DNA of 64,000 nt from Liolophura sinensis (lineage: Eukaryota; Mollusca; Polyplacophora; Chitonida; Chitonidae). The translations under genes and the position numbers were made by a program. Position 1 is the stretch's first letter. Each line of letters opens with the position of its first letter. The stretch covers positions 11,521,504-11,585,503 of the forward strand of contig NC_088298.1 of assembly GCF_032854445.1 (NCBI RefSeq), in the 5' to 3' direction. The notes under the pieces were generated by a model that saw only the letters and a list, made by a program, of their open reading frames with translations, did not search any database and was not told the DNA's origin. Below, one piece after another: positions 1 to 56,436 of this stretch.

Positions 1-3000
1 GTTAAGATGGAATTGTGTCATCATAAGGCTTCCTACAACAATGAAAGGATGAGAAATTATTAGCTGAGCAGTTTTATTTTCTCCATCCTTGTTAGTTGTG
101 ACGGCACTGTAGCCATAATCTCTATGATGAATCAAAAATGAGGTTTTCTTAACATTCCTTAAAATCAACGTAGTCTTTTGACATAATATTCCAGGCTTTG
201 GCTTTGGCATTCACGAAAGGTAATGAAAGAAAGAATTCAGAATATTTCACATCGTTATATTCAAATATTTCTTTCTTTATTTATTTATTTGATTGATGTT
301 TTGCGCCGTACTCAAGAATATTTCACTTATTTGACCGCGGCCAGTATTATTGGTGGAGGAAACCGGGTAGAGCCCGGGGCAACCCGACGACCATCCGCAG
401 GTTGTTGTCAGACCTTCCCACGTACGTATATTCAAGCAAGGCACTAAATTAGATTAAACTTGAAAGCAAATATTTATGCATTTAACACGACCCCAATTGT
501 CAGATACCTGGCAAACGGCCTGACATGAAGTCGCAACCAAATCAGCGAGAGCTTGATTCGAGCACACGACCACACTGACAACGAGTCTGAGATTGGCAAC
601 GAGCCAGCATTTTAAATTTCTGGGCCAACGAGGGTCCTGAAAAGAAAAAATAGAATCTTCCCGGTGTCGCATGCAAGTATTAACTGTAACATTGTCCCTA
701 CACAAATAGTCATTCTTTATTACTATAGGGGCCTATTTGTACGGGTCGGAGAGGAAATCACCATGAGTTGAACTTGAATTCAGAGCGACCGTATTGGTGA
801 GAGGCTCCGCGGTCATTGCGCCGCGTTGGCGTGTTACCCACGGTGACCCCCACTTTAGGTTTACCACGTACGCCACGGTATAATCATATGTACATGGCAA
901 TGGGTTGTTGTTATTTCATCTGAACATAGTGGAAACTTTATGCAAAAATGTTTTTCTTGTGCAAAGAAGTGTACATGAACCTTATGTAGAAAATATTAAC
1001 CTTCAACCACAATAGTTAACATCTTTCACCCAGTGCTGAAATCACACTATACTTTCTCAACTTTGGGGTGGCTTATTTTATCCCACAACGGTGAATGACG
1101 TCACATTTACCGTGGGAGGTCTTTGTTTCTGTAGCGCAAACTTCAAACATTATTGTGACGTCTTAAGGCTTTACGTCATTGATGCTGAAATGATAGTCTC
1201 TGTTGCACCAAACTTCTGACGTCACAATCTAGATGCTGACGTCGAATACCCTTGACCTCTCTACGTTACTGACGTCGCTATTGGTAACGCCTTTCTGGCA
1301 TCATAAGTCGAAGAACGACAAACGAACGACGTCTTCCTTTTTGCAAGACTACAACTTTGTCATAATAATGGGCCATCGATTTCGTCGACTACATCGTTTA
1401 CGCCAACAAGTGGTCAGAATCACCAGACGGCTGTTTAAGATTTGTTTCTTCTGTGGAACATTTCAAGAGGAGTACAGGAGTGAAGTTGTACCCGTGAGAA
1501 AGATTCTGACCAGCGACAAGCCCTTGGGAGCGCTTAGCTTCATCAGCCCCGACTGTGACCACAGACGAATGAGCTGTACAGCTCTCAACTGCGAACAGAG
1601 AACCTCCAAAGACTGCCTAGAGAAGCCGCCCAATCTGTTGTCTGATAAGCGATCTGGTGACGAAGTTCCTTGCCTGAATTTACCTTCAGGTAGTCCAAGA
1701 CAAATCGAAAACAGTAGAATGCAACATGTTTCCCCTACAATGCTTGACCAACGCTGTTCATCGCCAGGCAAGCTCAACTTTTCTGAAGTAAGAACAAGCT
1801 CTTGTCTCCAGATTGAGGTATGTCCTTCATATAGGCAGGAAATGGAAGGAAAATTGGAAAGTCTTAGTATATCATCCATAAACTCTGACTCGTGCACCCT
1901 AGGACAAAACACACTTGGAAATAGTTATGTTACTCAAATGAAGACAAACCTTAGTTCAAGCACTTCAGAGGAAATTTTGAAAAGCTACACAACCATAACA
2001 AACCAAGATAACAACAGTTTGATGAGAAACTGTGATGCATACTCTTCGGACGAAAATGTAAATGGTCAAAAAGCACTGAAAAACTTTCAGCTGACCAGGG
2101 GAAATCTCCGTACACACAATGACGAGGTGACATCTAAATCGCTCACTCCGGAAGGCAACGCTGATTTAAACACCCCCGTGAAGCAAACAAACTTTGGATT
2201 TGAATATTCGGGCGGTGATTCCAGATACGGCAACTTTCCCTTAGGGTGGAGTGTTGAAAAGAATTTATCCAGAGGAAGGTTTGGATATGTTGACATCGTA
2301 GAAGACGATAACAGTGACCAGAGGTATGTGCTGAAAACTTGCGACCTCGCTAGGAGTGAGCGAGAGTTCTCCATCCTTGCCGATTGTCAAGGAAAGTTTG
2401 TGTCAGCGTTATGTGGTTCGTTTGTGCGGTTTGATGAGCGGCTGATGTTCTTGAAACACTATCAACTGGGTGACCTCGGCCAGTGGCTGGAAAAAGATAA
2501 GCTTAGAGACAGGTTCGATGAGAAGACGGCTGTTTGGATTGCCGCTAATATATACAGTGCCGTAGATTTTATTGAACGACGTGGTATTTTACATTTGGAC
2601 ATCAAGCCGACCAATATCCTCATTGACGAAAAGGGATACCCGATTCTTGCTGATTTTGGGAACGCTAGGCGCCTTCACGAATGTCAGAGACCGGGGGACA
2701 ACAACGCTCTAACGTCTGCCTACACGTCACCTGAACTACTAAAGGGAAGACGAGCAAACAAGATGGCCGACCTGTGGGCGACAGCCTGTTGCTTTTATGA
2801 AATCGTCAAGGGGAGGTCACCTTTCCTGGGTAAGTCTGTGTCGGAAACTGAGCTGAAGATTTCACTGGGTGTTGCACCTGATTGTGACGGATTATCTTCT
2901 GCTGCCTGCAGCTTTTTGACTATTGAATTCGACCTGTCCCCCGCCCAACGTCTGGGCTACCATCGAGGGGCTTCTGCAGTCGTGTCTCATGAACTGTTCG

Positions 3001-6000
3001 CCGAACTAGAGTGGTTTGAGCGTCGACCGACACAGTCCCCATTACTGCGGGTTATCTCAGCTCTGGACCGGACATCAAAGTCCGCTACAAAACTGTTTCC
3101 ACTCTGCGATTCATCATCGTCTAGTGATTGCCTTGAAGACCAGGAAAAAGCGCCACCTAAGCGTAGACGGCGAAGAAGGGAGACAATCCCACTTAGAACC
3201 CAAAGTGCAGCTGACATCGACGGATATCTCGGTGACAACGAGGATCTCCGAGATAACTGGGGTTGAACTACAGTATCTCGGCACTGTTTCTATCATCTCA
3301 CCGATTTTCATCAAGTCATTGTATTTTACCACTTATAATGGACTTCATGTATATCATGGACTTTTATGGACGATTTAATAATACTTTGAACCCAAAACTA
3401 TTAAGACATTTTTTAAACATACATTATGTATTTATGTACATGTATGTTGCTTAAATGTGTAATAAAATTTTACATTTAGATTGTAAAATAAGTTTTGTTC
3501 CTTTACTTTGTTCATGGTAAATACTTACTGCGTATTGGACACGTGGGCATAAGTCTTGCCCTTGCCAGAATCAGTTAAGTCTTATTCAGAGGAAGCGACT
3601 GTTATATAAAACTACGGACTTTTGAGGATATCTTGTTATAAACGGATCCGATGTCCTCACACTGACAGGCATATGCCAACTAAGGACTTAAATTAATTAT
3701 TTATCTAGTTTCTATTCCAAATAGAGCGCAATTAAGATCTTTTTGTGTCAGGAAAATATCTGTTGAAGTCTCCTTTGATAACGAGAATGTATCGTTATAG
3801 GAAAAAAATGATGCCTAAAACTACACTACTACAGGTTCGCCTCCTGTAACGTATCAGCGAGGTCTAAGTTTGCTGTTGTCTGTTGTTTGCCCGTATGCAG
3901 CTTTCGTGAATTTTTTTCTCCGTTTCTACTGCTCCATCACACCAGTGTTTCTGGAACATGGACAGTTTTCACACGAGGGGGGCAATACAATCTCAATGTC
4001 TGAGTCGTTGATCAAATCAATTTAGACATACCCTCTTAGGACAGCTAACCAACCGTTAATGTTAATTTTAGTCACTTTGACATTTGGTATTTTTATTTAT
4101 TTATTTGTTTATTTATCTGAATGTTGTTTACGTTGTTACGGAATTTTGTTACTTATTCCATGGCGGTCATTTTCATGGGTGGAGAAAATCGGCCTGTCCG
4201 GGATAAACCACCGACCGTAGACAACATACTGCCTAACTTGTTCACGTGTAAAATGCAGATTTGTACATCAGATTGGTTGAAGACAAGTGTTCCTTAGCGA
4301 ACGCTTGGCTGCACAAACGAACACACGAGGGTAGTCGACGGCTTATTGTCATTAAGGCTCCTCAAGCAGTGAGAGTGAGGAAATCTGCAGATTCCCTGTC
4401 CCAGGCCGGTTTTGAACCGCCTCGTGTGTCCCAGTGACTGAAAGGCAAGCACTGTTAACCACTCGACCTGGACATCCCCTCTTAGAGCGTAATAATGTAA
4501 AGACGATACATGCCAAGAGACGATCCCCAATACCCACTATACAAAATATTTTCAAATACCATTTTCTCTTGAAAGAAGGTTAGGTTAGAATTATGTTGAT
4601 GCGACGGCAGTGTTTCTTGCGCTTACCTTGTAATAGTACAATCCAGGTGTGCGCAAATCCCAGCACGTGACCCCACGTGTTTTCCATTGGGTGGTACCAA
4701 AACGTGTAGACACAGGCCCACGAACATAGGTAACCATGGTAACGCTTCAGTATGTTGATTGGTTGAAAGTTGAGGCGCAAAAAGTTGCTAACCTTGTCCT
4801 TGTGTGCTAGTGTCGGCCAACCGAAAACCATGCCTCTGTGCCTGTACTCCATCAGCATAATGAACGTCAGCATTATAATCACCGAGCCTGGAAGCATGAG
4901 GAAACGAAACGACATACAGATATGCTCAACCGAGACCAGCAACTTAAGTTGAGAAAAAAACATGTTGCAAATTACTTTATGAACATAATTACGACCGCTT
5001 ATTGTTAAAAAGGTATCACAAACCGTGAAGGCGGAGGACTGCCAAATTTAATCTCCAGTATAGTGAACTTTGTAAACGCGAATTTTATATCACTTCAAGG
5101 TCAAATTTACTTGGTAACTGAACTATAACTACTTAGTCATATTCTAACGACAACAAGTCCAAGGAAATCTGTTAGCCCCTATTCTACAGTACGATTGGAC
5201 CAATGGAATCTGCTCTTACCTACACTTAGCCCATATTCTACAGTGCGATTGGACCAATGAAATCTGGTGTTACTTACACTTAGCCTATATTCTAAGAACG
5301 GCTCCACCAATGGAATCTGCTCTTACTTACACTGCGAGCTGGCGATGCTTACATCCTGAGCTGTGGCGTCATAAGTCGTGTGTGTTTGCAACAAATGAAG
5401 AAGATGGAAAAACACATTGATCCCGAAGAAGTAATAGTTGTATTTGTTGAGCGAAGGTGTGTATTCCATCCCTTGTTTTGCCTGGAAGTGAGAAAAAAGC
5501 CAATGGTTTATAGTGGTTGTTATAATTTGATACACACCTCAGGAAAAACATCCAAAGTAATCCTCTTTGACTGGCGATCAAATTTTGGGGTGAAGAATAC
5601 CAGGTTATGGGGGTCGGGGCGTGTAGATTTTAAGGTATCGCCAACTATCACGATTGGCTGATTTTACGGTCGGTAAAAATTAACATGTAAAGATTGCACC
5701 AGTCAACAAACACAGTATAGCCATGGTAAACGGCCCTGTATGCGACTAGTTCTACAAAACAGGGCGTTGTAAGTCACGAATCCAAGAAAGACATGCGTCC
5801 CAGGATAATTTCACACCAGTTTAAACGATTTTTTTTCTTTTTCTTATTGATTTGTGTTTTACGCCCTACTCAAGAATATTTCACTTATACGACGGCGGCC
5901 AGCATTATGGTTGGTGATAACCGGGCAGAGCCCGGGGGATACCCACGACCATCCACAGGTTGCTGAGAGACCTTCCCACCCAGTTCAAACGATGGATGGA

Positions 6001-7735
6001 AACGTGTTAGCAGACAAGGGTGACTAAGTGAAGTCTTTAGTTGGAAAATAGCGGATGAAATCGATTCGACCAGAGCGGTCATTGACGAGATCACGTTTCA
6101 TATAGCTGCCTGTTTTTTGTTTTGCATGGGAAATTATCGGATAATTAAGAATTTAGGTGTGAGATAGTGATCAAGACATGGATGTTGCATTCCGGCCGAA
6201 AGTAAACACTGTATATTTTGTGATCACAGAATTCTTGTAATAACTCTACCTTCATTCACCTATTAAAACCGTCGGGCGATACTTGACCGACCTATGTTAT
6301 CAAACGCTAACAAGTAAGATGTCAAGGTCTAAACGCTAACAAGTAAGATGCCAAGGTCTAAACGCTAACAAGTAAGGTGTCAAGGTCTAAACGCTAACAA
6401 GTAAGTTGCCAAGGTCTAAACGCTAACAAGTAAGGTGCCAAGGTCTAAACGCTAACAAGTAAGTTGCCAAGGTCTAAACGCTAACAAGTAAGGTGCCAAG
6501 GTCTAAACGCTAACAATTAAGGTGCCAAGGTCTAAACGCTAACAAGTAAGGTGCCAAGGTTCAAACGCTAACAAGTAAGGTGCCAAGGTCTAAACGCTAA
6601 CAAGTAAGGTGCCAAGGTCCAAACGCTAACAAGTAAGCTGCCAAGGTCCACAACTGACGCTCCCGGATGTGATCCACTGCTTTTTTAATAAACTTTTTCT
6701 TTTTTGGGAACTTTTTTGTGCTTGTTGTATGTTATATATGGTTTTGTAGGACAACATTCAAAGTTTCATTTCAGGTATAAATTTATGTATTTGATGCCAC
6801 ACCAGACAAAGACATCAGTAATAGGTTTACTGGCCTAACTCTCACTGGGTAATTTTAGACCCAATCTGCTGATAGTTAAGTCCTTAATTTGAATCCAGTT
6901 GTCCCAGTGTTGGAGGATTATCAGACCTGGGGTGCTCGGGGTTCGCAGATTTAGGTACAGATCAAACGTTAAAAAGAAAATGCTACTATAAACTTAAATC
7001 TAGTTAGATCAAACGATTAATAAGCATAAGTTGTCACAGCTGTTTTGGACTAACGTGATTGGTGACTTCATAAATCCACTTTCAATCAGGGATATTTCAG
7101 TATTCATAGATTATGCTATATTAAATAAACCAAAACACGTTTCTGTTTATTTTGGAGATATCTCCGTTACAAAACATCACAAAAATATAAAGGTGTAAGA
7201 TTTCAAAAATTTGTATCGGATAATTCATAGGCACGCATATTACATTTGGTCTATTGTCGTCTTTTTCATTTAATATATAAGTAAATGGAAAATTAGCTGA
7301 GGACTGTGACAAGCTGCGTCTCACCTTTTCCTGCTGTAAATTATAAATGACGATCCAGACGAAGAGCTGATGGGAAATGTAACAGACCCAGACGAATAAG
7401 CGGCTGTACCACGTGACCTGGTCTGGTGGCAGCTTCCAGTAATACCAACGTGCTGAGGCGTCTGTGCCATGCCTGGAACAGTGATGGTTGGACTCACTGA
7501 TTGATTCATGGAACGACTGATCGATTACAGAACGACTGATCGGTTATTACACTGATATGTGGATAGATCGAAACTCACCAAAGTATTATAGACGAGGTCA
7601 TTAACACGATATTCAGTTAATTCTTAATCGTTAGATTAACCGGATATTCAGTGAATTCCTAATCGATAAATCGGAAGATCATAACGAGTTTGTCTGCTGT
7701 ATATGGTGTATTGTGAGTCGCTCCCATTTCTCGGA

Positions 7736-7804
<69 letters not shown>

Positions 7805-9195
7805 ACTTTAAATATCACAACAATAATTATATTGAGGAACTTACTTAATCATGCCTGTGCACATTTGTTTTTGCTTTGCTCATAAGAACGACCCGAAGCA
7901 AAGAGGTCACAATTTTAAAATATTTAAGCAGATAAAAGAGATAAAAGGTCTCGAAGAGAAGTTAAGAGAATAGCCCATACCTTGTTTACCCTCTGTGCTG
8001 AAGTCTTTTATACTGTATAGTGTATATCAATCTAAATGTCTTTGTCAAACCAACCTTCCTTTCACTCCGGGCTCCTCGACATCAGGTTCTGGTAAAAACC
8101 GAATGGATGACGTCGCGCTGACGTTGTGCGAGAAACCCGAGTTAGCGTCCCATCCTCTAGAGCCTCCTACAGAAGATCAATTATGTGAAAAACATAGGAT
8201 CTAATGTCATAAACAGCTGTAGAGATTAAAGAGCCACAATTTGTACACCTATAGCAATTGGCGATGGTTTGATCCGGGCATTTCCATTACCCCCACCTAA
8301 AAAAACATGGAGTCTGTTTCATATGGAAAAAGTCTTGAATATATCAGACGTTAAATTAAAGTAACATTTCGTGTACATGGACCGCCGTATCCAACATCGG
8401 GCGACATATAACACCGTACCATAGTTATCACACGCAGTCGTATAACACACAGTCACGCAACACACAGTTGCATAACACACAGTCGTATAACACACTAAAT
8501 GTTGTACGGGAAACTTGAGACCAAATCTACAAACAAAACAAGCTAATTCAGAGAACCGATATTTCACGGTAAATGGCAAAAACCGTGAGCAAAGAGCAAG
8601 CTCTAAAGCTTAGAGTCGTGAGGACATGATAAGCTGGCACCGTATTTAAGCGCAGGTGTATAAAAAAAAACACCCAGCACGAATCGTCAGATTGATGTGA
8701 ACAGTCACCAAGAGTGCATGTATGCATGGTATGAATATAATGGGAGATGTCTAACCTGCGGGCAGGTTTGTGTTGTATAGATGAAAGATTGAAACTCTCG
8801 GAGAAAGGGTACACTGCGACGAGGCATTGAGTGACGTCCGATTGCCGTTACTAGGCAACCTTCCCTGCTGTTGCCAAAGGAAGGATCCAGATTTTGACCG
8901 TCAACTCAGTGTCAAGATTTTCAGTTTGTCTGCTTTGTCAAAGGTTAGCCAACATTCTCACCAATGCTTATTGGCCAGGGAATGCCCGGGCTAAGTTAAA
9001 TCACTTAACGTTAACATTTACGTTTGTACAAAATTTGAAAATGTCTGAGGGCAAATGTAACTTAATATCCCCCTTCCGCCTTTTTGTAAGACTGGGTTCA
9101 TCGTGAAAAATTGCAACTTACCGATGCCGAAGATAGTGCCCCCGAGCGCAACCATGAACAACACGCCACATATCCATAGTATGACGTCATGTCGT
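1..9195 (-). CDS. Multi-pass membrane protein gene, partial (six exons joined)
   Basis: Exons in transcript order are 9195-9122, 8166-8055, 7472-7325, 5481-5331, 4887-4627 and 32-1 (continuing off the window). All have AG acceptors and GT donors (GTAAGT, GTTGGT, GTGAGA, GTAAGT, GTAAGC), and every junction phase agrees, giving about 259 continuous codons. The product has about six hydrophobic segments: one in exon 1 (HDVILWICGVLFMVALGG), then a polar stretch with an N-glycosylation site (NVS), then TM segments around YSRLFVWVCYISHQLFVWIV, NYYFFGINVFFHLLHLL, SVIIMLTFIMLM, GYLCSWACVYTFW and HVLGFAHTWIVLLQGSL. The run FWYHPMENTWGH, rich in His/Trp/Tyr, stands out. I do not recognise a named family and assign no function. 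The start codon was not found: the first joined exon needs an upstream exon ending in phase 2. The GTTGGT donor at 8054 is weak, and the acceptor at 7473-7475 has an alternative. The splicing pattern and composition make this a real gene. Confidence 0.85.
272..850 (-). mobile_element. tRNA-derived SINE (family 1) interrupted by a second SINE
   Basis: The tail half (272-426, TTTATT-rich end, then the conserved GCCGTACTCAAGAATATTTCAC core) and the tRNA-like head half (739-850, with the inverted B-box region and the GTGTTACCCACGG end) are parts of one minus-strand SINE. They are separated by 427-738. The pentamer GTACG is present on both sides of the insert (422-426 and 739-743), as expected for a target duplication. 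Confidence 0.75.
427..738 (-). mobile_element. tRNA-derived SINE (family 4) nested in the first SINE
   Basis: On the minus strand this 312-base insert carries a B-box-like GTGCTCGAATCAAGC (around 551-571) preceded by a TGGC-rich A-box region. It shares the TGGCTCG...GTCGTGTG.TCGAATC.AGC arrangement with 24510-24645 and 53470-53600, which defines a small repeat family within this window. Confidence 0.55.
1096..1334 (+). promoter_or_regulatory. Cluster of CRE-like (TGACGTCA) sites at the 5' end of the kinase gene
   Basis: Seven CRE-like octamers lie in 239 bases: TGACGTCA at 1096-1103 and 1217-1224, TGACGTCT at 1156-1163, TTACGTCA at 1171-1178, TGACGTCG at 1237-1244 and 1270-1277, and CGACGTCT at 1327-1334. 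These match the CREB/ATF consensus. The last three fall inside the nominal first codons of the kinase, which suggests this is promoter or 5' UTR and translation begins at 1368. Confidence 0.6.
1233..3266 (+). CDS. Intronless AGC-like serine/threonine protein kinase
   Basis: A single open frame of 677 codons. Residues 1-335 are low in recognisable domains: basic around 47-67, then Ser/Thr/Asn-rich. The kinase domain spans about 336-600. The Gly loop is S346-R-G-R-F-G (first Gly replaced), the ATP lysine is K368 (YVLK), and the helix-C Glu is probably E378. The catalytic loop is H454-L-D-I-K-P-T-N (D456, K458, N461; the usual HRD Arg is Leu), followed by D474-F-G, S499-P-E and D513-L-W. An RLG motif at R573 followed by H..F....W matches the end of PKA/PKG-type (AGC) kinase domains. 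The C-terminal tail has an acidic/Ser stretch and a nuclear-localisation-like KRRRRRR at 643-649, and no visible AGC hydrophobic motif. The in-frame Met at 1368 (M46) is a likely alternative start, because the first 45 codons overlap CRE-like promoter elements. The gene lies antisense within an intron (33-4626) of the membrane-protein gene. Substrate is unknown; activity is plausible because K, D, N and DFG are intact. Confidence 0.93.
   Translation: MLTSNTLDLSTLLTSLLVTPFWHHKSKNDKRTTSSFLQDYNFVIIMGHRFRRLHRLRQQVVRITRRLFKICFFCGTFQEEYRSEVVPVRKILTSDKPLGALSFISPDCDHRRMSCTALNCEQRTSKDCLEKPPNLLSDKRSGDEVPCLNLPSGSPRQIENSRMQHVSPTMLDQRCSSPGKLNFSEVRTSSCLQIEVCPSYRQEMEGKLESLSISSINSDSCTLGQNTLGNSYVTQMKTNLSSSTSEEILKSYTTITNQDNNSLMRNCDAYSSDENVNGQKALKNFQLTRGNLRTHNDEVTSKSLTPEGNADLNTPVKQTNFGFEYSGGDSRYGNFPLGWSVEKNLSRGRFGYVDIVEDDNSDQRYVLKTCDLARSEREFSILADCQGKFVSALCGSFVRFDERLMFLKHYQLGDLGQWLEKDKLRDRFDEKTAVWIAANIYSAVDFIERRGILHLDIKPTNILIDEKGYPILADFGNARRLHECQRPGDNNALTSAYTSPELLKGRRANKMADLWATACCFYEIVKGRSPFLGKSVSETELKISLGVAPDCDGLSSAACSFLTIEFDLSPAQRLGYHRGASAVVSHELFAELEWFERRPTQSPLLRVISALDRTSKSATKLFPLCDSSSSSDCLEDQEKAPPKRRRRRRETIPLRTQSAADIDGYLGDNEDLRDNWG
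3461..3466 (+). terminator. Poly(A) signal of the kinase gene
   Basis: AATAAA about 195 bases after the kinase stop codon, followed by a T/G-rich stretch near 3480-3505. It supports an autonomous plus-strand transcript of roughly 2.3 kb. Confidence 0.7.
3485..4310. other. Intronic sequence 3' of the kinase gene with a diverged SINE
   Basis: No convincing exon on either strand. 4088-4250 reads as a heavily diverged minus-strand family-1 SINE (TTTATTTATTTG tail, GGGTGGAGAAAATCGG core). The rest is AT-rich and unremarkable. Confidence 0.5.
4311..4479 (-). mobile_element. tRNA-derived SINE (family 2), copy A
   Basis: The minus strand begins TGTCCAGGTCGAGTGGTTAAC (A box) and has GAGGCGGTTCAAAACC (B box), followed by a non-tRNA body. 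A second diverged copy lies at 42757-42928. It resembles a Leu/Ser-type tRNA head with a long variable-arm region. It sits in the same intron as the kinase gene. Confidence 0.7.
5168..5345 (-). repeat. 54-bp tandem repeat spanning an exon's 5' splice site
   Basis: About three copies of a roughly 54-base unit, each with a GATTGGACCAATG-like core (an ATTGG/CCAAT inverted pair, lost in one copy) and ending in TTACTTACACT. On the minus strand the last copy holds the functional donor AGT|GTAAGT at 5330 of exon 5481-5331. Further donor-like copies are at 5277 (AGT|GTAAGT) and 5223 (AGT|GTAGGT). Confidence 0.75.
5842..5985 (-). mobile_element. SINE family 1, 5'-truncated
   Basis: Carries the conserved tail-side core (TACGCCCTACTCAAGAATAT, CGACGGCGGCCAGCATTATGG, GGGCAGAGCCCGGGG), ending near CTTCCCACCCA. 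The tRNA head is missing. It lies in the intron between exons 7472-7325 and 5481-5331. Confidence 0.8.
6299..6652. repeat. 29-bp minisatellite, 12 copies
   Basis: Twelve head-to-tail copies of AAACGCTAACAAGTAAGGTG plus CCAAGGTCT, varying at few positions (AGATG, AGTTG, AGCTG, GTCAAGG). It lies in an intron of the membrane-protein gene. There is no spacer diversity, so it is not a CRISPR array. One isolated monomer-like match is at 49247-49263. Confidence 0.95.
7742..7799. repeat. (TA)n microsatellite
   Basis: About 29 uninterrupted TA dinucleotides in the intron between exons 8166-8055 and 7472-7325. Confidence 0.97.
8428..8496. repeat. Short tandem repeat, about 17-bp unit
   Basis: Four imperfect copies of ACACAGTCGTATAACAC, in the intron between exons 9195-9122 and 8166-8055. 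Confidence 0.7.
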
Positions 9196-9454
9196 CTGAA
9201 ACAAGACTGTGACGTCACAGTTTCCTGTACAAACAACAAACACAGTAATTGTACTTTAGAAAGCAAACGTGGTACAATTCACCCAGAGTGGTAAATTAAG
9301 GTAAAGGCAAGATTGCCTTCCTAAATATAAACCAATTTACTGGGTATGATTAGTACTTCTTTTACAAGCTGCGGAGAATCGTACAAAAACTCAATTATCT
9401 GTCTTTTCTATTAAATTTGCCCGATGTTACGTCACACAACAATACATGACGTCA
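9181..9454. promoter_or_regulatory. Group of CRE palindromes near the first joined exon of the membrane-protein gene
   Basis: ATGACGTCAT (9181-9190, inside the exon), CTGTGACGTCACAG (9207-9220, a 14-base perfect palindrome just upstream of the splice acceptor), TTACGTCA (9427-9434) and TGACGTCA (9447-9454). They match the CREB/ATF consensus. Whether they act as a promoter is unknown because the transcript start was not found. Confidence 0.35.
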
Positions 9455-9517
9455 CCATCGCTGAACTTAACACCATAACAAACACAGTATCCTCAAACAT
9501 ATCTAACCTCATTCTAA

Positions 9518-9769
9518 TAGTTCGGCTCAATTGGTTAGCGCCCTAGCGCAAAATAATGACCCAAGAGCCTTTCACCAATGCGGTCGCTGTGAGTTCAAGT
9601 CTAGCTCATTCTGGCTTCCTCTCCAGTCGTACGTGGGAAGGTCTGGCAGCAACCTGCGGATGGTCGTGAGTTTCCACCCACCATAATGTTGGCCGCCGTC
9701 GTATAAGTGAAATATTCTTGAGTACGCGTAAAACGCCAATCAAATAAATAAATAAATAAATAAATAATA
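9518..9769 (+). mobile_element. SINE family 1, near full length
   Basis: The tRNA-like head has an A box (GGCTCAATTGGTTAGCGCC) and a B box (GTGAGTTCAAGTCTAGC). The conserved central core follows, then CCAATCAAATAAATAAATAA. This is one of the most complete copies and defines the family's layout: tRNA head, conserved centre, (AAAT)n tail. Confidence 0.9.
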
Positions 9770-10003
9770 GCCGGGCCTAGTTTTTCATAAGTGTACTAGC
9801 AGCTAAACCCAGTATTAACCATTAGTTTTGTATCTGGCCAAGGCTGGCATTAAATATTTAAGCCTGGCTTCAAATGTATATTTGAAAAACCGGCCTCATG
9901 TGGTACTTTACTTTACGTCCTTCCGCCTTGCATAAACGTCACTTTCAGGCAAATAGTACGGAAACTACCGAAGATTTTATTTTGGAGGACACTTCAATTA
10001 TAT

Positions 10004-10139
10004 CCGGTCTCCAGCAACCTGCGGAGGATTGTGTGTTTCCCCGGGCCCTGCCCGGTTTCCTCTCACCATAATGTTGGTCGCCGTCGCATAAGTGAAATAT
10101 TCTTGAGTACGGCGTGAAACACCAATCAAATAAATAAAT
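10004..10139 (+). mobile_element. SINE family 1, 5'-truncated
   Basis: Starts inside the central region (CCAGCAACCTGCGGAGG) and ends CCAATCAAATAAATAAATC. The tRNA head is absent. Confidence 0.85.
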
Positions 10140-10576
10140 CAGTTATATCCGTTCAACGGAACCTTGGTGTTGGTTCTTTTACGTAAATTCAGCCAAGTTT
10201 CTTTCGTGACTGTTGTAGCTATGGCATATGAGTTCCAATTAAGATCTGCAGACTCATACACCAGAAACACTGTGCAGCGTAATGGATAAATGATTCATAT
10301 ACAAGGCTACAGGACCGATCAAAACTTAGTACAGAGCTATGTAGGCTACATTTCTATGGATGGCGAGATCCACGGTAAATCCGTACTGTTATGTATGGTG
10401 TGAGTACAAATTAAAGCGATATTTTATTGCCTCGGATTGCTGTATTGACATAAGGTCGGAGACCGAGAGTCGATATGGCTTCGTAAAGTCCTGAACAACA
10501 TACTCCGAAGTCTGCATTTTCCAGCCAAAAGCAGCTGTCCTCATTTATCATGAGTGTTCTCCGCTGTGTAGTTTGT

Positions 10577-10770
10577 GACCTCGGCTAATTCGGTTTTCAC
10601 TCGGCCAATGCGACTTTAAACACGCCCGTTATGACTTTCACTCGGCCATTATGACTTTAAACACAGTCAATAAGACATTCAACTAAGCCAATTTGACTTT
10701 GTAAACTGCCAATACGACTTATGCTCGGCCAGTACGACTTGAAACCCTGCTAATACGACTCGATCAATAC
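10577..10770. repeat. Diverged tandem repeat (CGGCC-AATACGACTT motif)
   Basis: About seven decayed units of 20-30 bases built around CTCGGCCAATACGACTTTAAAC. Unit length drifts, which points to an old array. Confidence 0.6.
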
Positions 10771-10977
10771 AGCCTTGCTCTGCACATGTGTATGTAATGT
10801 AGGGCGTATTGATTGTATTACAAAAATAACATATTCCCAGTTGATTGATAAAATATGCTATTGTCTTTAGCTACAGGATAGGGTCCGAGTTTTAACCGTG
10901 GCGTCTTTTTACGTTCCGCATATAAGCGCAAGTTAGCCTCAAATAACGGACGATCTGTAGTAAACTGTAAGTTAATT

Positions 10978-11078
10978 ACCCCCCCCCCCCCCCACCACAC
11001 ACACACACACACAGAGCAACAAAAAAACAAAAACAAACAAACAAACCAAAAAAAAAAAACAAAAACACACATAATGAT
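10978..11078. repeat. Poly(C), (CA)n and A-rich low-complexity tract
   Basis: A run of about 15 C residues, then CACACA repeats, then AAAC/A-rich sequence. It produces long spurious open frames on the minus strand. Confidence 0.9.
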
Positions 11079-11527
11079 GCATGTATAAGCATGGGTGAAT
11101 GTACCCACAGATAGCTAAATATGACCCACGAAAACGTCATATCACTATACAGGTTATTACTTACCATGCCGATTGATTTCCACTAAACAGAATAAAATTA
11201 GTCACATTGCCAGTTCTTGACCAATCTGTTCCCTAACGACGTTCTCGTGAACGAATTCTAGCCCTATAGATGTCACCGTGAAAACGTATAGCGTTGTATG
11301 CTCAATCAACACCGTCACGGACGGCAAACTTTCGTTGCCATGGCAATACGCCTTGTCTTTTTTTAGCCACGACCTTCATGTGCATATCTATATTAAGAGC
11401 ATTTGCTCATATAATTATACTTGGTATCTGATTATTGCAATTTGTAATTAAGATATAAATGTACTGCCCATCTGTGGTGGTAGTTTATGTTCCTGCCAAG
11501 GTGGAAAAAAAGAACTTTCAAAATAAC

Positions 11528-11630
11528 TGACTACATAAATAAATAAATTAATAAATAAATAGATAAATAAATAAATACATGTATGAATAAATACATATAT
11601 GAATTAATAAATAAAGAAAGAAAAATGCCA
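11528..11630. repeat. (AAAT)n-rich tract
   Basis: Tetranucleotide AAAT/GAAT repeats such as those ending SINE copies, but without a recognisable SINE core next to it. Confidence 0.7.
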
Positions 11631-12804
11631 TTTTAATATTTCATAGACTATCAATCATTCGTGTTTTTTCAGATTTACTAAATTAAAGTTCCCTTCAAAA
11701 AATACGTTTCAGATCTATTTTAGGTCATTTTTGTGTTAGTTTCTAGGTTGCTGTTTATTCTGATTAGTTGACCATATTGCCCCACCGCAGAACAGCACCC
11801 ATGGACCATCACATACATTATACACGTTGAGGGTAGTCTACATGGTCTTCGTGGCGTCCCACATATAGGTACATGTAGTGTGTGCCCTATATATAGATCA
11901 GCTCATTTTACTATACCATAAATCGGGGCATTAAAATGGCTGGGAATCAGCTATATGGTTATATCGTTGTATTGAGGGAGTTGTATTATTCTCATGTGAA
12001 TAAGCGAAGCTTACACACTCGAACGTGGTATACAGGCCAACAGTTTATTCATAGCTTGCTTATGTAGGGAGAATTTATACATACATAACATGTATACGGC
12101 GACTTGTGAGATCGTTCCACAAAGTGACCTGAACATCAGGGTGTGCTAACCCACATGGCTTGTGTGAGCCCAGAATGTGCGTAAGTACACAAACTACTAC
12201 ATCCACTTCAGATCATGGCAATGATTTATTTGAGGCTGTCAACACTTTCCATTCTTGCCACTGTGAAAAGCTTCGTTTGCTACATAGCCTACAATTGCAT
12301 GTACAAACTACAAAAGCGCCCTGGCAATCAACCATGTCTGTTGCACTGTTGGGTAGTTGACACGAACGTTTTTTTGATGTCAACAGACACGCACGTTCGC
12401 ATATGCACGTGAGTGACCTACATACATATTACGGCTAGCAAACTGGCTAACTCATTTATTACTTGTTGATTTGCTATTTTTATTTTTTTTTATTAGGGTT
12501 TTGCCTCTCGCGCCTGGATTCAAAACACGTGCACTGGTGCCGCTGAAGCTCTACATATTACGTCACGAGGTTTTTGTCAGCTGTCACGTGATAGGTATTT
12601 TCTACTCCGTACAGAGAATACTTTCTACTCAATGAGGAACCAGATTTTCAGAATGAACATCTTAGAAGGGCTCACTGACTAGCGAAAACATCAACCTGGT
12701 CTTTACTACAACTCCCTCTTAATTACACTGCCTCCAATGTGCCTTAAAACTACGAAAGCTAATCGCACTGCTGATTTTCCATGCCATAAACTACACAAGT
12801 TTGC

Positions 12805-12962
12805 CATCATGGAAACCATCTTCATCGGAAGCTGGACACAGTGTAGTTGGTACTTCACCATAATTCTGACCGTCGTTGTGTAAATGAAATGTTCTCAGTG
12901 GGGTACATGGTAAATATCCATTTATATAAATAAATAAATAAAAATAGAATAAATAAATAACA
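12805..12962 (+). mobile_element. SINE family 1, strongly diverged
   Basis: A weak match to the core (CACCATAATTCTGACCGTCG, TGTAAATGAAATGTTCTCAG) followed by an AAAT-rich tail. The match is by arrangement more than identity. Confidence 0.5.
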
Positions 12963-13289
12963 AATAAATGGCTGTTGTAAAGACATGGTTGCTGCCTTTG
13001 TTGTTGCTGGTCCCCTTCTCAGATGTCCATTGTGAAAAATAGATTCTTCAATAAACTGACATCACTCTACTATGCGCCAGCAACCTCACGTTAACAAATC
13101 CCCCAGTGACTGCGAGTACGGTAAATCACCCTTAATCTCATGACATGTTTTGTCAACAAATCGCTAAGCTGTAGGGACCGGGGTAGCATGTACAGAGGGG
13201 CGATATTTGCTGGCGAGAAAAAAAAAGCATACAAATAAACATTTTATAATACTCTAAATCATCTTTGATTTCAGATAATTTCTCACCAA

Positions 13290-13386
13290 CATACATGTAG
13301 TACAGCATGCACGTAGTACAGCATACATGTAGTACAGCATGCACGTAGTACAGCATACATGTAGTACAGCATACACGTAGTACATG
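13290..13386. repeat. 16-bp tandem repeat
   Basis: Six copies of GTAGTACAGCATACAT / GTAGTACAGCATGCAC, the two variants largely alternating, so the basic unit is close to a 32-base dimer. Confidence 0.9.
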
Positions 13387-13507
13387 AAATTACAGCTGAT
13401 TTACGGTGCCTTAACTTGTCCGCCTTCAGTCATGGTCAAATTTCAGGCATATTGATTTACCACGTGCAGCAAGTGTTATCAGAGGTTGTACATACAGCTG
13501 GTACTGA

Positions 13508-13560
13508 CCTTGCTTTCGTCTTCGGTCGAATCTGGTGTATTCATTTTAGAGCTGCTCGCG
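13508..13560 (-). other. Possible small upstream exon on the minus strand
   Basis: On the minus strand an acceptor-like TTTCTGTTACAG precedes 53 bases, open throughout, encoding MNTPDSTEDESK with an AAAATG start context and ending at AAG|GTCAGT. It could be a 5' exon of the membrane-protein gene, but its phase (0) does not match the first joined exon, so another exon would be needed. Weak. Confidence 0.2.
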
Positions 13561-13999
13561 GCTGTAACAGAAATCAAGAAAACGATGTTTCCAGTGTCAA
13601 ACCATTTCAGGTGTAGTGCTAGGGGTAAACAGGTATAAATACTGTCCAACCAGCCAGAATATGTGTACAAATACCTGTCACTGTTGATGATACACACGTT
13701 TGCTGTACATGTAGACCAGAGCTAAGCTTATGTGCCTACCACGCCATACAAAACCATCACACGGTCTGTACCACAGCAAGAGGCCAGAAACCTATTGGCA
13801 GGTTGCCAGCCCGCTATTATATATGGACAAATGGAAACACTCGACAGCACTTGAGTTCCAAGCCGTTACTCTGTTTGCCCTCCGTCCATTGGACTTGCAC
13901 TAGTTATGTTCCAGTAGGCTACTTATTCTGTGAGCGATTCTCCTAAGTCATATATATAATGCATGATATTACTGTGTTTCACAACGGAATAATAGTCCG

Positions 14000-22065: not shown

Positions 22066-25000
22066 CTAGTGATGGAAGGCAATATAAGCATTCTCCACAA
22101 ACTTGGCCTGGTTACACTCCGGCGGTGGCACGAAGTCGTTAGGGTTGGGAATTCCCTCGATGATGTCATAATAGTTGGTGGTAACCGTGTCGGTAATGTT
22201 GGCATTGGCAATAACAACGGTTCTGATTGGATAACAATTCTTGTTGCTGAAAGAACCAATCCAAAACTCCCCTGAAATTTGAATAACAAAACACATGTTA
22301 TGTATATAATAGAATATGGTGGCTTTAGTGAGATGTAACGGAAACATACAACTGTTCTCGTGCACAGTCATTTTAGGGCTGTTGCATGGATTATTGCTAA
22401 AAAAAACAAACATAATGGTAACCAAGGAACTGTTGAAAAAAGACATATTCAAATTTCAAATAAGCAATAGTTTGACCAATGATTACAATGTCAAGGGGTC
22501 TTCATTCGCTACAATTATATTCCTTATTTAAGCAATAAATCTCTTTTCATAGCAGAGATATATAACAAATGCTGAGATAGTAGTTTTTACATCAATGATG
22601 AAAGTGTTTCCAAAACTTATGTCGGTTTCACTGGTGATTTGGTGAGATCGATAGCATTGTCTAAAAACTTCTAAATTTGTTTTATAATAAAACTGAAACA
22701 CACCATTTTCAAATTTATACTGTTGTCATAAGTTTTTTTATTTTGCGATTATGGTCTGGAGTTATTAAACAGATTTGCTTCTGAATCTAATTGTTATTTT
22801 CATTCATAGGTTACTCCCACTCTCTATAAAGGCTAATGTGGCATATTTTTTTTTTCAGAGAACAAGGGAATGTGGGAATAAGGACAAAGACGAGGAACAT
22901 GTGCATTAAATTAACCAAATCAAGTAGTGAACAAATCCACGAAGGAAAATTTGTATCATTCCATGTTCTTTGTTGATTTAAAAGCCATCTGCATACAATA
23001 TAATTGTCAAGATTGATAAAATATTTACTCAACGATGCTTTGCCATCAGTCAACTCAAAAAAATTAATAGTCAGCGTGGACTTACTTCTCCTCAGGGGAA
23101 TTCTATCAGACCACTCCGTCACGAAGATTTCCTCCCCAGGACCCCCCACGGTGTATTCGTCCTCGAAGGTGGCGTTCTGGGGGATTCCCCAGGAGCGCCA
23201 TGGCTGCGGTGTGGATCTCGTGCACTCACGCGTCTTAATGTTGATCGTGTACAACACGTTCTCGTTGTTCAGGATCAGGTACTCGTAAAATCTACGAATG
23301 TCAAGTGATTTCTGCAGTGGTTATATGATAATTAATTCGTTTCTCTAGTTTTTTTTACTCTAGTTTATTTATAAATACCGACATGTTCAAGCCTTACAGA
23401 CCTTTGATTTATTTATATCATTGATCCTTTACGCCGTATAATGGTAAGAAACCTGACAGAATCTTGGGAAACACCGACAGACCTTTGAGTTGCAAAAACC
23501 AAGCATGTATATGTATGCTTGGGCTTTTAAGTTGTATTTAACAATTCTTCTTTTATGAGACTTAACCAAGAGAGAATTTTAATTCCTTCATTCTCATCAG
23601 AGATATTTGCATAATGATCCAAAGCCGCTTCGTTTTTATTTTAACGGGAAGCCAAGGCATTACTTTCAACCTTATTTAACCTGTTGTCTACAAAGTGGTT
23701 TCCGGTCCTTACTTTTTCCCGGGAATGACCACGAGATCCTCCTCGAAGACGACAATCCGCCTGTTAGGCTCATCATAGGTAAAGATAAATTTCCTCTCGT
23801 AGTCCTGAGCGTGATTGTACTGAGCCACACGACCCTGTGACGACAGAATAATCAATTAACAAAAATGTATAACTACCAATAATTTGTGTTTTTGCTACTT
23901 GGGGTTAAACATTGCCTAAAACATCTTTTCGGCCATGACTAGACGTATATTTATATGCTTGAGGTTTTATCATGACAAGAAGGGGCCAGGGTCTAGTTTC
24001 ACAAAGCGGCGTACGACATTTATTATCGTACATTTGCTCTACGATGTCTTGTACGTCACCATTACCGTACTATTGTCCTATAAGTGCGATTATCGCCCAT
24101 GTATCTTTGTGAAACTGGACACTGCAGATGTTTAGAAGTGTACAAAAAAGTTAATCCAGGTTTAAATCTCAGTACCTGTCTTATCCTAATACAGTGTGAT
24201 TTAAGTCCAAATTAAAGTTAATACCGAGATTAACTGCTAATACGCATTTAACCAACTGGACCAAGGTGAGGAGTGTTAGCTTGTAGTTGGACGGTCTCAA
24301 ACAGGACATGCCTACCGAACACTAAAACACCATGCCGATGATGCGAGACATCACCATGCAGTTTTGGCCATCACAATACCATCCAATAATCCATTTGTCT
24401 GTGCATTTTTCTTACTCACATATCTTGTCATAGATTTCTGTGCAATAAATCACAAGTTCTATAATTTGGTGACTAGTCTTTAATCCATCAGATAAATCAT
24501 CCACTTAGGCGGCATAGCTGACTGAGAATGTTAACGCCCTGGCTCGCTGCCCTCAATATAGCCAATGAGGTCGTGTGATCGAATCCAGCTTTCGCTGTTT
24601 TTGCTGCGGCTTCATATATGCGAAAACGTAAAACCAATCAAGCAACCCATGAATCCTTGCAGCAGACCGATTCTGATCTCAGCATGTATATAACACTGTC
24701 TCACCTGAACACCATGCCGACCTTGAAGACCCGGAACACCTCATAGATATCAACGGCATTGAGACTATATTAACAACGGACTAAACGATATTGGGTCATT
24801 CCACTTCGACGCACGCCTAGCTCAGAGGCCGAACTGTGACAAGTTTTTTAAGCGGAGCTCACACAGGATTAACCTTAGCTACTAGGGCGGATGCTCTAAC
24901 CACTTGGCCATTGCAATATTATCTAATAATCAATAGATTGATCCAGTTATTATTATTATTCAAACAATTGGTTCCTTAAAGTTCTGTAATTTAATATCAA

Positions 25001-27421: not shown

Positions 27422-30400
27422 CTACATTCCCAGGAAGTGCTTGGGTTGTGGAACCCATTTGGCGGAGCGGCATTCACTGGGTGGCGTGAAGACACTGGTG
27501 TCAGGGATGCCCATCTGGAAGTCACGGTAGAACTCTGACACTGTAGCTGTAACGTCCCCTCGGGTCACGTACACGAAGCGGAGAGGGTAGCATTTCTGCG
27601 CAGTGAACTCGACAAGCAAAGACTCACCTGAAATGAAACTCACTAATTCATATTTTGTTTAAATCCGTCAGTGAGTTTCTGCAAACACGTAAATTGCCGA
27701 AGTTCTACTATTTACAGCATTCTTATGTATAAATTTAGTAGGATATTTATTTATTTGATTGGTGTTTTACGCCGTACTCAAGAATATTTCACTTTTACGA
27801 CGGCTGCCAGCATTACGGTGGGAGGAAACGGGGGCAGGTTGCTGACAGACCTTCCCACGTAATTTCGGAGAGGAAGCCAGCATGAGCTGGACTTGAAGTC
27901 ACAGCGACCGCATTGGTGAGAGACTCATGGGTCATTACGCTGCGCTAGCGCGCTAACCAAGTGAGCCACGGACCCGAAATGCAATTACAAAAATGAAATC
28001 TGACATTGAAAGCGGTAGGCTTGGGTGCTTTAACTGGCAACAAACATATCCATCGCTGTGCTGATCATTTTATTATGATATTTTAATTGAACCTCTCCCA
28101 GTCATTTTTTAGGGTGGAGGAAGCCAGGGGTTGCCTACCCGATATACCCCCGGACTTAAAGCCGTTCAAAACCTTGAATTAAGTTATATCACTGTGCATA
28201 CAAGCATGCAAACATGTCTACTGGGCTAAACATTAGGAATGACGTCTCGTATCCTTACGATTTTTAGTGAAGAAGCTAGAATACTTCGGTATACTGTGGA
28301 ATGCTTACTTTTTCTGAGTGGAACTCTGTCGGACCACTGACTGGCATAAATCACCTCCCCTGGTCCACCAAACGATAACTGATCCTCAAAGGTGGAGTTA
28401 GGAGCGATAGCGATTGAGCGCCATGTTGGATTTGGGGTCTTGGTACAAACGTGAGTCTTGTGGTCGATGGTGTAGAGAACCTTTTCTTGGACGAGAACGA
28501 TGTAGGTGAAAAATCTGACCAAAGCAACGAAAAATAAAAATTAGAATCTATACTCAGCGAGTAAAAATAACATTGATGATATATTTTGTACATATAATTG
28601 AATGTATACTTTTCTTGTCATAACATGCTGTATCATATATTGCACTGCTTATGAAAGATGTCCACTAAGCAGTTTCAGGTAAAAACTGATAACAAAAAGG
28701 GTAACTTTCATATCCTTAACTAGGCTCGACGGTAAAACACCGAGCGGGGGCTGCCGAGCGCCTAATCGTCGCCGAGGTGGTTAGCGTCCAGCACAGCGAA
28801 ATGACCCAGAAGCCTCACACCAATGCCTCGTGGAAAGTCAAATATCATTCAAATGTTCTTGGGAATAGTGTAAAACGCAAATCAGTTAAATAAATAAATA
28901 ACAAACAAATGAATAAATAAATGAAAAAAAATAAAAACACCGAGCGTTTAACAGATAAATTAGAATGTAATATGACACGGTTCATAATATGGTCATACGA
29001 TCTGAATGCACTGTGATTCAGAGATTATATTTGGACATGATGAATGAGACATTCGTTTAGTCCCTGATGAAAAGCGTTGTAAAACACAAAAAGTGCTAGT
29101 ATCGAAGCGAATCTTCTCTACTATATCAAATATGAACGGTACAAGACGACAGCACGGAGCTACGAAGTGCAACCAACTCAGGGAAAAAGTAACTGTTATT
29201 ACATATGATTCCCGTGATGTCTTGTGGTAACAAGAATATAGTCGTGTGGTGAGAATGTTCTAAAAGACGATCATGAACACTCCCGTGTTGTACTGAAACA
29301 TAATTTTGTCCTTAGCCCTTAGTGTGTTTCAAGTTTTAACAGTGTTGTGGGTAATCCTGTAGAGTAAACTATTTAAAGATATTTTTAAATTTATTTCATT
29401 TATTCATTTGATTGGTGTTTTACGCCGTACTAGAACATTTCACTTATAAGACGACGGCTAGAATTATGGTGGGAGAAACCGGGTAGAACCAGGGCGAAAC
29501 CCACGACCATCCGCATCCGTTGCTGGCAGATAGGACAGAGAGGAAACCAGTAGGAGAAGATATTTTTAAACATATAAGGATATTTATGCAAACTATACAT
29601 TTCATGTGAATTTTGTGTTTAATCCGTTTTTTAAAAAAAGGTGGTGTACTTTTTTGCTCTGATTTTGAATGTTATCATTCTCACGCGGAAAGCCAGAAGT
29701 GTTTCCTGGTTTTTCAGTTCTAACACGTTCTTGTCACGATATGGCTGAAATATTGCCTGAGTAGAGATCAACCCAAATAATGCATTAACTTATTCTAAAC
29801 GTGTGTCTGGGTTGGTGGACAAGATATACAACTAACTGGTTTCCTGGCATAAAGATAGTGAATGCCGTCAAACCCAGATATACAACTCACTGGTTTCCTG
29901 GCATAAAGAGATTGGATGTTGTCACACCAAGATATACAACTCACTGGTTTCCTGGCACAAAGAGACTGGATGTTGTCACACCAAGATATACAACTCACTG
30001 GTTTCCTGGGATGACGTTCCTCTCTTCTTCCACGATGTACTTCCGCCTGTTTGTCTCGTCATAGGTGACATTGAAGCTGCGGATAATGTCCCGGCCATGA
30101 TCGTACTGTGAGATACGGGTCTGTAATAATGTGAGATAAGGAATCCGATTATCTCATTAGTATTTAATGACGGGTATTTTCCTGGAACGCCACTTCTATG
30201 TGGAGGCTATTTATTTGATTGGTGTTTTTACCTTGTGCTGAAGAATATTTCATTAATAGAGCGTCGACGAGCATTATGGTTGGAGGAAACCGGGCATAGC
30301 CCTGGGGAAACCCACGATCATCCGCAGGTTTCTGCCAGACCTTCCCAAATTCGACTGGAGAGGAAGCCAGTATGGATGAATTGGACTTTTGGAGAGGAAA

Positions 30401-34395: not shown

Positions 34396-34632
34396 GTCAT
34401 GGTGACATCGATGGTGCTAACGTTTAATGGCACTGTCACATTGCTTCTCGTCATCGTTTGAACACTTCGTACCCTCGTCGTGTGATTCTACAATGGCACG
34501 ACTGTGCGATGAAGCGCTTATCTGGCTGACACTATTTAAAAAACCCAAATCATGTATATAAAACAAGCTTTAAGAGTTTAACAATACATATACGAAGAAA
34601 CATTTTAAGTTGTGGTGAAAGGCATGTCATTA

Positions 34633-35357
34633 AGGAAAGGACATTTTGGTAGTGACCGTGAGGTATTTTACAGAGAGCTCAATATGTAAAGAAAGGTCAT
34701 TTTGGTAGTGACCGGGAGGGATTTTACAAATAGCTCAATATGTAAAGAAAGGTCATTTTGGTAGTGACCGGGAGGGATTTTACAGATAGCTCAATATGTA
34801 AGGAAAGTCCATTTTGGTAGTGACCCTGAAGGATTTTACAGATAGCTCAATATGTAAGGAAAGGTCATTTTGGTAGTGACCCTGAGGGATTTTACAGATG
34901 ACTCAATATGTAAGGAAAGGCCATTTGGTAGTGACCCTGAGGGATTTTACAGATAACTCAATATGTAAAGAAAAGTCATTTTGGCAGTGGCCCTGAGGGA
35001 TTTTACACATAACTCAGTATGTAAGGAAAGGTCATTTTGGTAGTGACCGGGAGGGTTTTTACAGATAGCTCAATATGTAAGGAAAGGTCATTTTGGTAGT
35101 GACCGTGAGGGATTTTACAGATGGCTCAATATGTAAGGAAAGGTCATTTTGGGACATTTTGGTAGTGACCGTGAGGGATTTTACAGATGGCTCAATATGT
35201 AAGGAAAGGTCATTTTGGTAGTGACCGTGAGGGATTTTAGAGATGGTTCAGTATGTAAGGAAAGGTCATTTTAGTAGTGACCGTGAGGGATTTTAGAGAT
35301 GACTCAGTATGTAAGAGAAGGTCATTTTGGTAGTGCCCGTGAGGGATTTTACAGATA
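34633..35357. repeat. 56-bp tandem repeat, 13 copies
   Basis: Unit AGGAAAGGTCATTTTGGTAG plus TGACCGTGAGGGATTTTACA plus GATAGCTCAATATGTA. Thirteen copies with low divergence and one small insertion (GGGACATTTT) near 35150. Each unit has AGGTCA and TGACC nine bases apart. Confidence 0.95.
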
Positions 35358-39404: not shown

Positions 39405-40548
39405 GCTGTGGCATAAATGTGTAAATAGTGTCAGTGTAGATTGTAGAGTTTGGCATAAATGTGTAAGCGGTGTATGTATAGATTGTAGAATGTGGCATAA
39501 ATGTGTAAACTGTGTATGAGTAGATTGTAAAGTGTGGCATAAATGTGTAAATAGTATGTGTAGATTGTAAAGTGTGGCATAAATGTGTAAATAGTATGTG
39601 TAGATTGTAGAGTGTGATATAAATGTGTAAATAGTATGTGTAGATTGTAGAGTGTAACACAAATGTGTAAATAGTGTAAGTAGTTATGGAGTGTGGCATA
39701 AATGTGTAAAAAGTGTATGTGTAGATTGTAGAGTGTGGTATACATGTGTAAAAAGTGTATGTGTAGATTGTAGAGTGTGGTATAAATGTGTAAATAGTGT
39801 ATGTGTAGATTGTAGAGTTTAGCATAAATGTGTAAACTGTGTATGTGTAGATTCTAGAGTGTGGCATAAATGTGTAAATTCTGTGTGTAGATTATAGAGT
39901 GGGGCATCATTGTGTAAATGGCGTATATGTGGGTTTTACGGTGTGGTATAAATGTGTAAATATAATGTGTAGATTATACAGTTTGGTATAAACGTGGAAA
40001 TAGTGTGTGTACATTATAGAGTGTGGCATAAATGTGTAAATATAATGTGTGTAGATTGCAAAGAGTGACATAAATGTGTAAATGGCATATATGTGGGTTA
40101 CACAATGTGGTATAAATATGTAAATAGTATGTGTAGATTATAGATTGTGGCATAAATCTGTAAATAGCCTATGTGTAGATTATAGAGTGTGGCATAAATG
40201 TGTAAATGGTGTATATGTGGGTTAAACAGTGTAGCATAAATGTATAAATAGTGTGTACATTATATTTATTTATTTGTAGGTGTTTTACGTAGTACTCAAG
40301 AATATTTCACTTACACGACAGCGTCCAGCGAGAGGAGCAAAAACACGACCATCCGCAGGTTGCTTGGTGACCTTCCCACGTACGTTCCGGAGAGGAAGCC
40401 AGCATGAGCTGGACTTGAACTTACAGCAACCGCATTGGTGACAGGTTCCTTGGTCATTACGCTGCGCTGGCGCGCTAACCAACTGGGCTACGGAGGCCCC
40501 ATGTGTAGATTATAGAGAGTGTGGCATAAATGTGTAAATAAGGTATAT
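39405..40548. repeat. 42-bp tandem array (about 20+ copies) split by a SINE
   Basis: Unit GTGTAGATTGTAGAGTGTGG plus CATAAATGTGTAAATAGTGT plus AT, with 39-base variants. It runs from 39405 to 40262 and resumes at 40501-40548 after the SINE. Near-multiple-of-three units make long false frames on the minus strand (up to 172 codons). Confidence 0.95.
40263..40500 (-). mobile_element. SINE family 1, near full length, inserted in the 42-bp array
   Basis: A complete tRNA head at the right end (CGCGCTAACCAACTGGGCTACGG..GGCCCC) and a tail at the left. The same array motif (GTGTA.ATTATA) flanks both sides, so it inserted after the array formed. Confidence 0.93.
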
Positions 40549-56425: not shown

Positions 56426-56436
56426 TCACTACCTTG

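Follow-up and report, generated by a model that had tools for sequence, protein, structure and literature searches.

In nested protein-coding genes of mammals and Drosophila, the internal genes are typically short, intronless and often derived from duplicates, and 220 of 296 simple human nested pairs lie on opposite strands (excerpts of PMC8467205). The closest described case is that of the LRRTM genes, which have a single main coding exon and lie in alpha-catenin introns, on the strand opposite to the host; host and passenger were duplicated together, and a relative with a short, passenger-free intron is found in frog ctnna1 (434 bp; excerpts of PMC3933685). Features of this kind recur at a locus of the chiton Liolophura sinensis, where a protein kinase gene lies antisense within an intron of a membrane-protein gene. 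The locus lies in a stretch of 64,000 nucleotides (contig NC_088298.1, C4:11521504-11585503), hereafter the window, in which negative coordinates denote bases left of the window start. The genome searched was the L. sinensis assembly (609,464,459 bases in 632 contigs, labelled C1, C3, C4 etc.), published as L. japonica before the species was renamed Liolophura sinensis in a correction (PMC12441733).

We consider it likely that this is an independent single-exon coding kinase gene nested antisense in its host, that its intronless AGC-like family most likely multiplied as DNA copies that carried the promoter along, and that it landed in the host intron, labelled E4-E5, before host and passenger were duplicated in tandem. 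Three copies of the host are distinguished: C, the window copy, with the intact kinase; B, with a kinase relic; and A, which is more diverged.

The nested kinase gene

Two coding exons of a single host gene enclose the whole kinase gene, which is on the opposite strand. The upstream exon, 4887-4627, ends in CAAG followed by GTAAGC, TTGTAG precedes the next exon, which begins at base 32, and the joined exons read CAA G followed by GA AGC (Q-G-S). An earlier sequence-only reading had placed the intron between 4627 and 32 by matching phase. The phases do agree, 27 prokaryotic homologues of the host read through the junction, and copy A has an intron at the same codon; the host splice junction is thus confirmed as a gene structure predicted from DNA. 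The features of the nested gene are:

33..4626, minus strand: host-gene intron holding the kinase, 4594 nt, with GT..AG ends and phase 1 on both sides
1096..1276, plus strand: cluster resembling cAMP response elements (CRE/ATF-like), the proposed promoter, with TGACGTC at 1096, 1156, 1217, 1237 and 1270 and ACGTCA at 1173
1233..1367, plus strand: in-frame upstream extension, probably untranslated, since it lies upstream of the start conserved in the family
1368..3266, plus strand: kinase coding sequence from the likely start, without introns, 632 codons and a stop
2250..2990, plus strand: protein kinase domain by Pfam, residues 340-586 of the 677-residue frame
3461..3466, plus strand: AATAAA, the poly(A) signal of the kinase gene, which is missing from the copy B alignment

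The open reading frame at 1233-3266 specifies 677 amino acids without interruption, its first codon directly following a TAG, and matches Pfam Pkinase with E=3.2e-34. The sequence-only reading had described a complete intronless kinase at these positions. The single frame, its place inside the intron and the AATAAA at 3461 all stand; only the start has to be moved, most likely to ATG 1368 rather than 1233, because the proteins of the family start with a conserved M-x-x-R-(F/L)-x-R motif. This ATG has A at -3 and G at +4.

Mismatches between the window kinase and copy B fall at 23/256, 23/256 and 54/257 of first, second and third codon positions, respectively. The ratio of nonsynonymous to synonymous divergence (dN/dS) is 0.257 over 256 codons of 2495-3266, a value that pools both lineages, copy B now having three stops in frame. 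Together with the homology, this ratio excludes a chance reading frame, and the window kinase reads as a constrained protein-coding gene. By sequence the protein has the residues expected of an active kinase, namely the catalytic Lys, the αC Glu, the catalytic Asp, the Asn and the DFG motif, while the arginine of the HRD motif is replaced by Leu.

A single-exon kinase family and its promoters

A search of the whole genome with the 632-residue protein returned 68 matches. At 19 places (the window and 18 others) a single open frame of 444-2344 codons contains the kinase match, although two matches on C5 run on past the TAG that ends the frame. The start motif is present in the same frame at 15 of the 19; the starts of the other four, all in the C5 array, were not read. 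About seven further places are degraded (copy B, C1:64.59, C6:2.509, C6:2.559, C13:10.5, C1:83.0 and C6:5.94 Mb), and the remaining matches, with E of about 1e-8 or weaker and 23-49% identity, are other kinases or fragments. No close relative split by introns was found in this search, which was made exon by exon and in which 70 of 104 candidates were scored, so that a very divergent parent could be missed. The longest frame, uninterrupted over 2344 codons, is that of the locus at C12:22.09 Mb (L041+L069); it includes a long linker whose degenerate repeats are rich in Asn, Ser, Thr, His and Gly.

Twelve members were aligned, leaving out near-identical tandem copies. Ten aligned N-termini share nine columns that are invariant in all ten, beginning at the Met of the start motif. 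An Arg/Cys motif near the N-terminus is common to the 12 aligned members. All catalytic residues examined are kept in the window protein and seven others, but not in L040, L045, L046 and L057, and the HRD arginine is Leu or Met in all 12. L040 on C3 and the window gene form one group, supported at 98/96. Among solved structures, all 60 PDB relatives listed for the family profile are AGC kinases under a grouping that we take to comprise the RSK N-terminal domain, SGK, S6K, PKA and PDK1; a search of the window protein up to E 0.1 gave no match to the AGC C-terminal domain PF00433. The AGC-related RSKR, SgK494 and S6KL kinases are possible orthologues. By these comparisons the 12 members are AGC-like kinases and pseudokinases. 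Other pairs within the family gave dN/dS values of 0.347 (C7), 0.271 (C12), 0.365 (C1) and 0.305 (C5).

The five TGACGTC sites in 1096-1276 compare with a maximum of two per 181-nt span in 200 Markov copies of the window. We examined 12 family starts, one per near-identical tandem set and without the four unread C5 copies, over 300 nt upstream (288 nt in one stretch). They hold 41 TGACGT sites, where simulation gave 4.2 on average and at most 12; at least two sites are present at 10 of the 12 starts and at least three at eight, whereas 2.8% of 300-nt background windows hold at least two. The most enriched hexamers, GACGTC and ACGTCA, stand about 19-fold over background. In controls, where the start codon was taken as the first Met of the longest frame, three sites were found at 12 G-protein-coupled receptor starts and none at five HSP70 starts, the latter lying close together on C10 and so non-independent. 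No CRE site was found upstream of the degraded members C6_5939 and C6_2559.

The promoters of the C12 pair align weakly from -300 to -35, scoring 31, whereas 200 shuffles reached at most 24.5. Since CRE sites are present at most of the members examined and the C12 promoters can be weakly aligned, we infer that the promoter probably travelled with the gene. The C12 pattern is probably one of DNA copying with the promoter, the flanks diverging later, possibly with gene conversion in the coding part.

The host gene and its tandem copies

The part of the host gene at 5481..1 matches 27 prokaryotic loci (L001-L027) with 37-53% identity in the best segment, in one scan of prokaryote genomes. These are mostly from Chloroflexota, with some from Actinomycetota and a few from Pseudomonadota, and their reading frames are unbroken across the position of the chiton intron. 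When the genome was searched with a bacterial homologue, all 11 matches fell in C4:11.486-11.529 Mb and represent the three host copies.

Copy B is colinear with the window (1-13718 against -22551 to -6400), and five host exons compared between the two differ at 63 of 775 positions, an identity of about 92%. In copy A the exon DNA is 71-75% identical to the window, and a 334-nt GT..AG intron lies at the same E4-E5 junction in the same phase. No kinase match was found in the 4 kb of copy A that were read (best E 7.5), so that the kinase is, by present sequence, specific to copies B and C or lost from A. The relic in copy B is the nearest match of the window kinase (68-83% identity by piece, with stops inside). 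What is left of it comprises the start (1368-1458) and 2495-3889, most of the sequence between them being lost, as is the AATAAA. Synonymous divergence (dS) between the window and copy B is nearly equal for the kinase (0.336) and the five host exons (0.305), which fits one joint duplication; dN/dS for the host exons is 0.123.

Two observations concern copy B. The broken kinase contains, at about -21.6 kb, an element resembling a short interspersed element (SINE), one of a kind that recurs many times in the window. The intron that follows host exon 7472-7325 is identical to copy B over its first 42 nt (7324-7283, minus strand), which is unusual for an intron at such divergence and possibly reflects gene conversion.

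Joining the six host exons seen (9224-9122, 8166-8055, 7472-7325, 5481-5331, 4887-4627 and 32 onward) gives one open frame, with all borders AG/GT. The exon with the start codon, upstream of 9224-9122, was not placed, and a weak match at about -601 to -672 suggests one more exon. The exons and the repeat inside the intron are:

9122..9224, minus strand: host exon 1 of those seen, kept in copy B with a 3-nt indel; splice sites and frame
8055..8166, minus strand: host exon 2 of those seen, kept in copy B; splice sites and frame; no clear bacterial counterpart
7325..7472, minus strand: host exon 3 of those seen, DASARWYYWKLP.., matched in 20 of 27 prokaryotic homologues (best E 2e-10) and in copies A and B
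5331..5481, minus strand: host exon 4 of those seen, matched in 24 of 27 prokaryotic homologues and in copies A and B
4627..4887, minus strand: host exon 5 of those seen, on the upstream side of the intron with the kinase; best prokaryotic match 51%, copy B 90%, copy A 71%
1..32, minus strand: first bases of the following host exon, the rest of which lies to the left of the window and extends to about -146
266..426, strand not given: SINE-like interspersed repeat with many copies in the window, its second part at about 739-840

The host product is a multi-pass membrane protein, and its chiton gene has introns and three tandem copies. The partial host protein has no Pfam match. Sixteen aligned prokaryotic members gave matches to seven Pfam families, each matching one member only (best E 0.0028); no consistent Pfam or NCBIfam match was found for the family, nor was a solved relative or fold when these were looked for. 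The model of a bacterial homologue has ten long helices (pLDDT 84), and many residues, six histidines included, are invariant in the 16 members. The host gene may derive either from horizontal transfer or from an old family lost elsewhere.

Elsewhere in the window, 22814-23320 and 28229-28540 (minus strand) match Pfam Ependymin with E values of 3.8e-12 and 2.3e-11 and are probably ependymin-related genes. Long tandem repeat arrays lie at 6302-6648, 34631-35357, 39407-40254 and 56433-56852, with units of 29, 56, 42 and 49 nt, respectively.

Origin of the nested gene and comparison with known systems

The history that we favour would begin with an intronless AGC-like kinase family multiplying in this chiton by DNA copies that include the promoter. 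One member would have inserted into intron E4-E5 of the gene for the membrane protein, and gene and passenger would then have been duplicated in tandem. In copy B the passenger would have decayed, with loss of its promoter and of the greater part of its N-terminal half, while the window copy stayed under purifying selection. The CRE cluster may drive transcription via CREB/ATF/CREM-type factors, the male germ line being one candidate site. With Leu in place of the HRD arginine, phosphorylation of the activation loop would not gate the kinase activity in the usual manner, and the protein may be attached to the membrane through its basic, Cys-containing N-terminus.

Several points weigh against this history. 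The near-identical C6 pair has a dN/dS of 0.723, on very few changes (dS only 0.007). Two of the 12 family starts, C1_31687 and C5_13463, have one CRE site each. The genome has 772 GACGTC triples, many of them in tandem repeats, and the sites are not exclusive to the family: among the other chiton kinase loci (L028-L035, less L030 and L033, dropped before the count with frames short of a plausible start), six starts hold seven sites, three of the six having at least two. Three of these loci (L028, L029 and L034) are presumably TSSK-like, going by a sequence motif; two of them have CRE sites at their starts and the third, L028, has none within 300 nt. Copying with the promoter draws on one pair, that on C12, whose score over -600 to -35 is 31 against a shuffle maximum of 30 and whose 3' flanks do not exceed shuffles (33 against 35.5); its pattern could also be explained by retroposition or gene conversion. 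That the kinase-free state of copy A is the original one is an assumption, and loss from A may fit as well. Both transcripts are predictions from DNA.

Among other explanations, an ancient retroposed founder is compatible with the history above: the first family member would have been a retrocopy of an AGC kinase, spread later by DNA duplication. Single frames of up to 2344 codons and the AGC kinases among the listed PDB relatives agree with it, but introns lost by a route other than retroposition, or a founder from outside the animals, would give the same picture, and we consider this reading about as likely as not.

Retroposition of a spliced kinase mRNA into this very intron, with a promoter acquired later, had been proposed in the sequence-only reading. 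The kinase has no introns, and nested single-exon genes are presumed to arise by retrotransposition (excerpts of PMC3933685), but no intron-bearing parent was found in the same genome among the 70 of 104 candidates scored, the relatives are themselves in long single frames, and their starts are mostly CRE-rich. Neither a poly(A) remnant nor a target-site duplication is visible, as had been reported before; both may have eroded. By the family comparison the intronless state is older than the insertion into this host intron, and we consider such a retroposition improbable. It is also quite doubtful that the kinase exon is part of a longer spliced gene that has its 5' untranslated exons elsewhere and possibly beyond the host intron; DNA sequence does not map 5' ends, but the conserved start motif lies at ATG 1368 with the promoter-like CRE cluster directly upstream. 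A decaying duplicate without function, as the broken tandem twin and the loss of catalytic residues in the closest intact relative, L040, might suggest, is very improbable in view of the open 632-codon frame, full catalytic set, low dN/dS, poly(A) signal and CRE cluster.

Beyond the favoured history, we tentatively suggest, while regarding it as somewhat doubtful, that these genes make up an undescribed family, expanded in chitons, whose AGC-like kinases and pseudokinases are single-exon and non-RD and have in common a basic, Cys-containing N-terminal anchor and mostly CRE-cluster promoters, serving one cAMP-responsive programme that is possibly germ-line specific. The window gene would be the catalytically complete member of its clade with the C3 pseudokinase, lodged in a host gene of a membrane family otherwise known here only from bacteria.

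Like the AGC kinases, the chiton kinase domain has its best PDB matches in that group, including an RLG...F..W segment after the catalytic core; unlike them, chiton members have Leu or Met for the HRD arginine, four of the 12 aligned have lost catalytic residues, and the window protein has no reported PF00433. The oyster kinome has 28 AGC kinases, and the excerpts of PMC4883820 report no such expansion there. The TSSK testis kinases resemble the chiton family in being intronless in most amniotes, as are some bivalve TSSK-like genes, while an abalone TSSK1-like gene has four exons (excerpts of PMC6905558); TSSK are a different kinase group. In mouse, Tssk2 and Tssk6 are listed as bound by CREM and Tssk1, Tssk3 and Tssk5 as not bound (excerpts of PMC10454534), and germ-cell-specific intronless genes are described (PMC3428356). 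Control by CREB/CREM and use in the germ line would be analogous to these mouse genes, and membrane anchoring may be added from the N-terminus.

The chiton locus differs from LRRTM in that other genes are involved, the duplication is a local tandem one, one passenger has decayed, and the family is mostly dispersed over other chromosomes. Copies A (intron without passenger), B (broken passenger) and C (intact passenger), all within about 45 kb, form a natural series for the birth and death of a nested gene. Most of the family members examined have similar promoter motifs despite differing flanks, which allows one to ask whether an intronless gene needs to acquire a new promoter or may bring one along. 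Compared with the systems above, the nesting itself is ordinary, and the kinase family with its promoter signature is the newer part.

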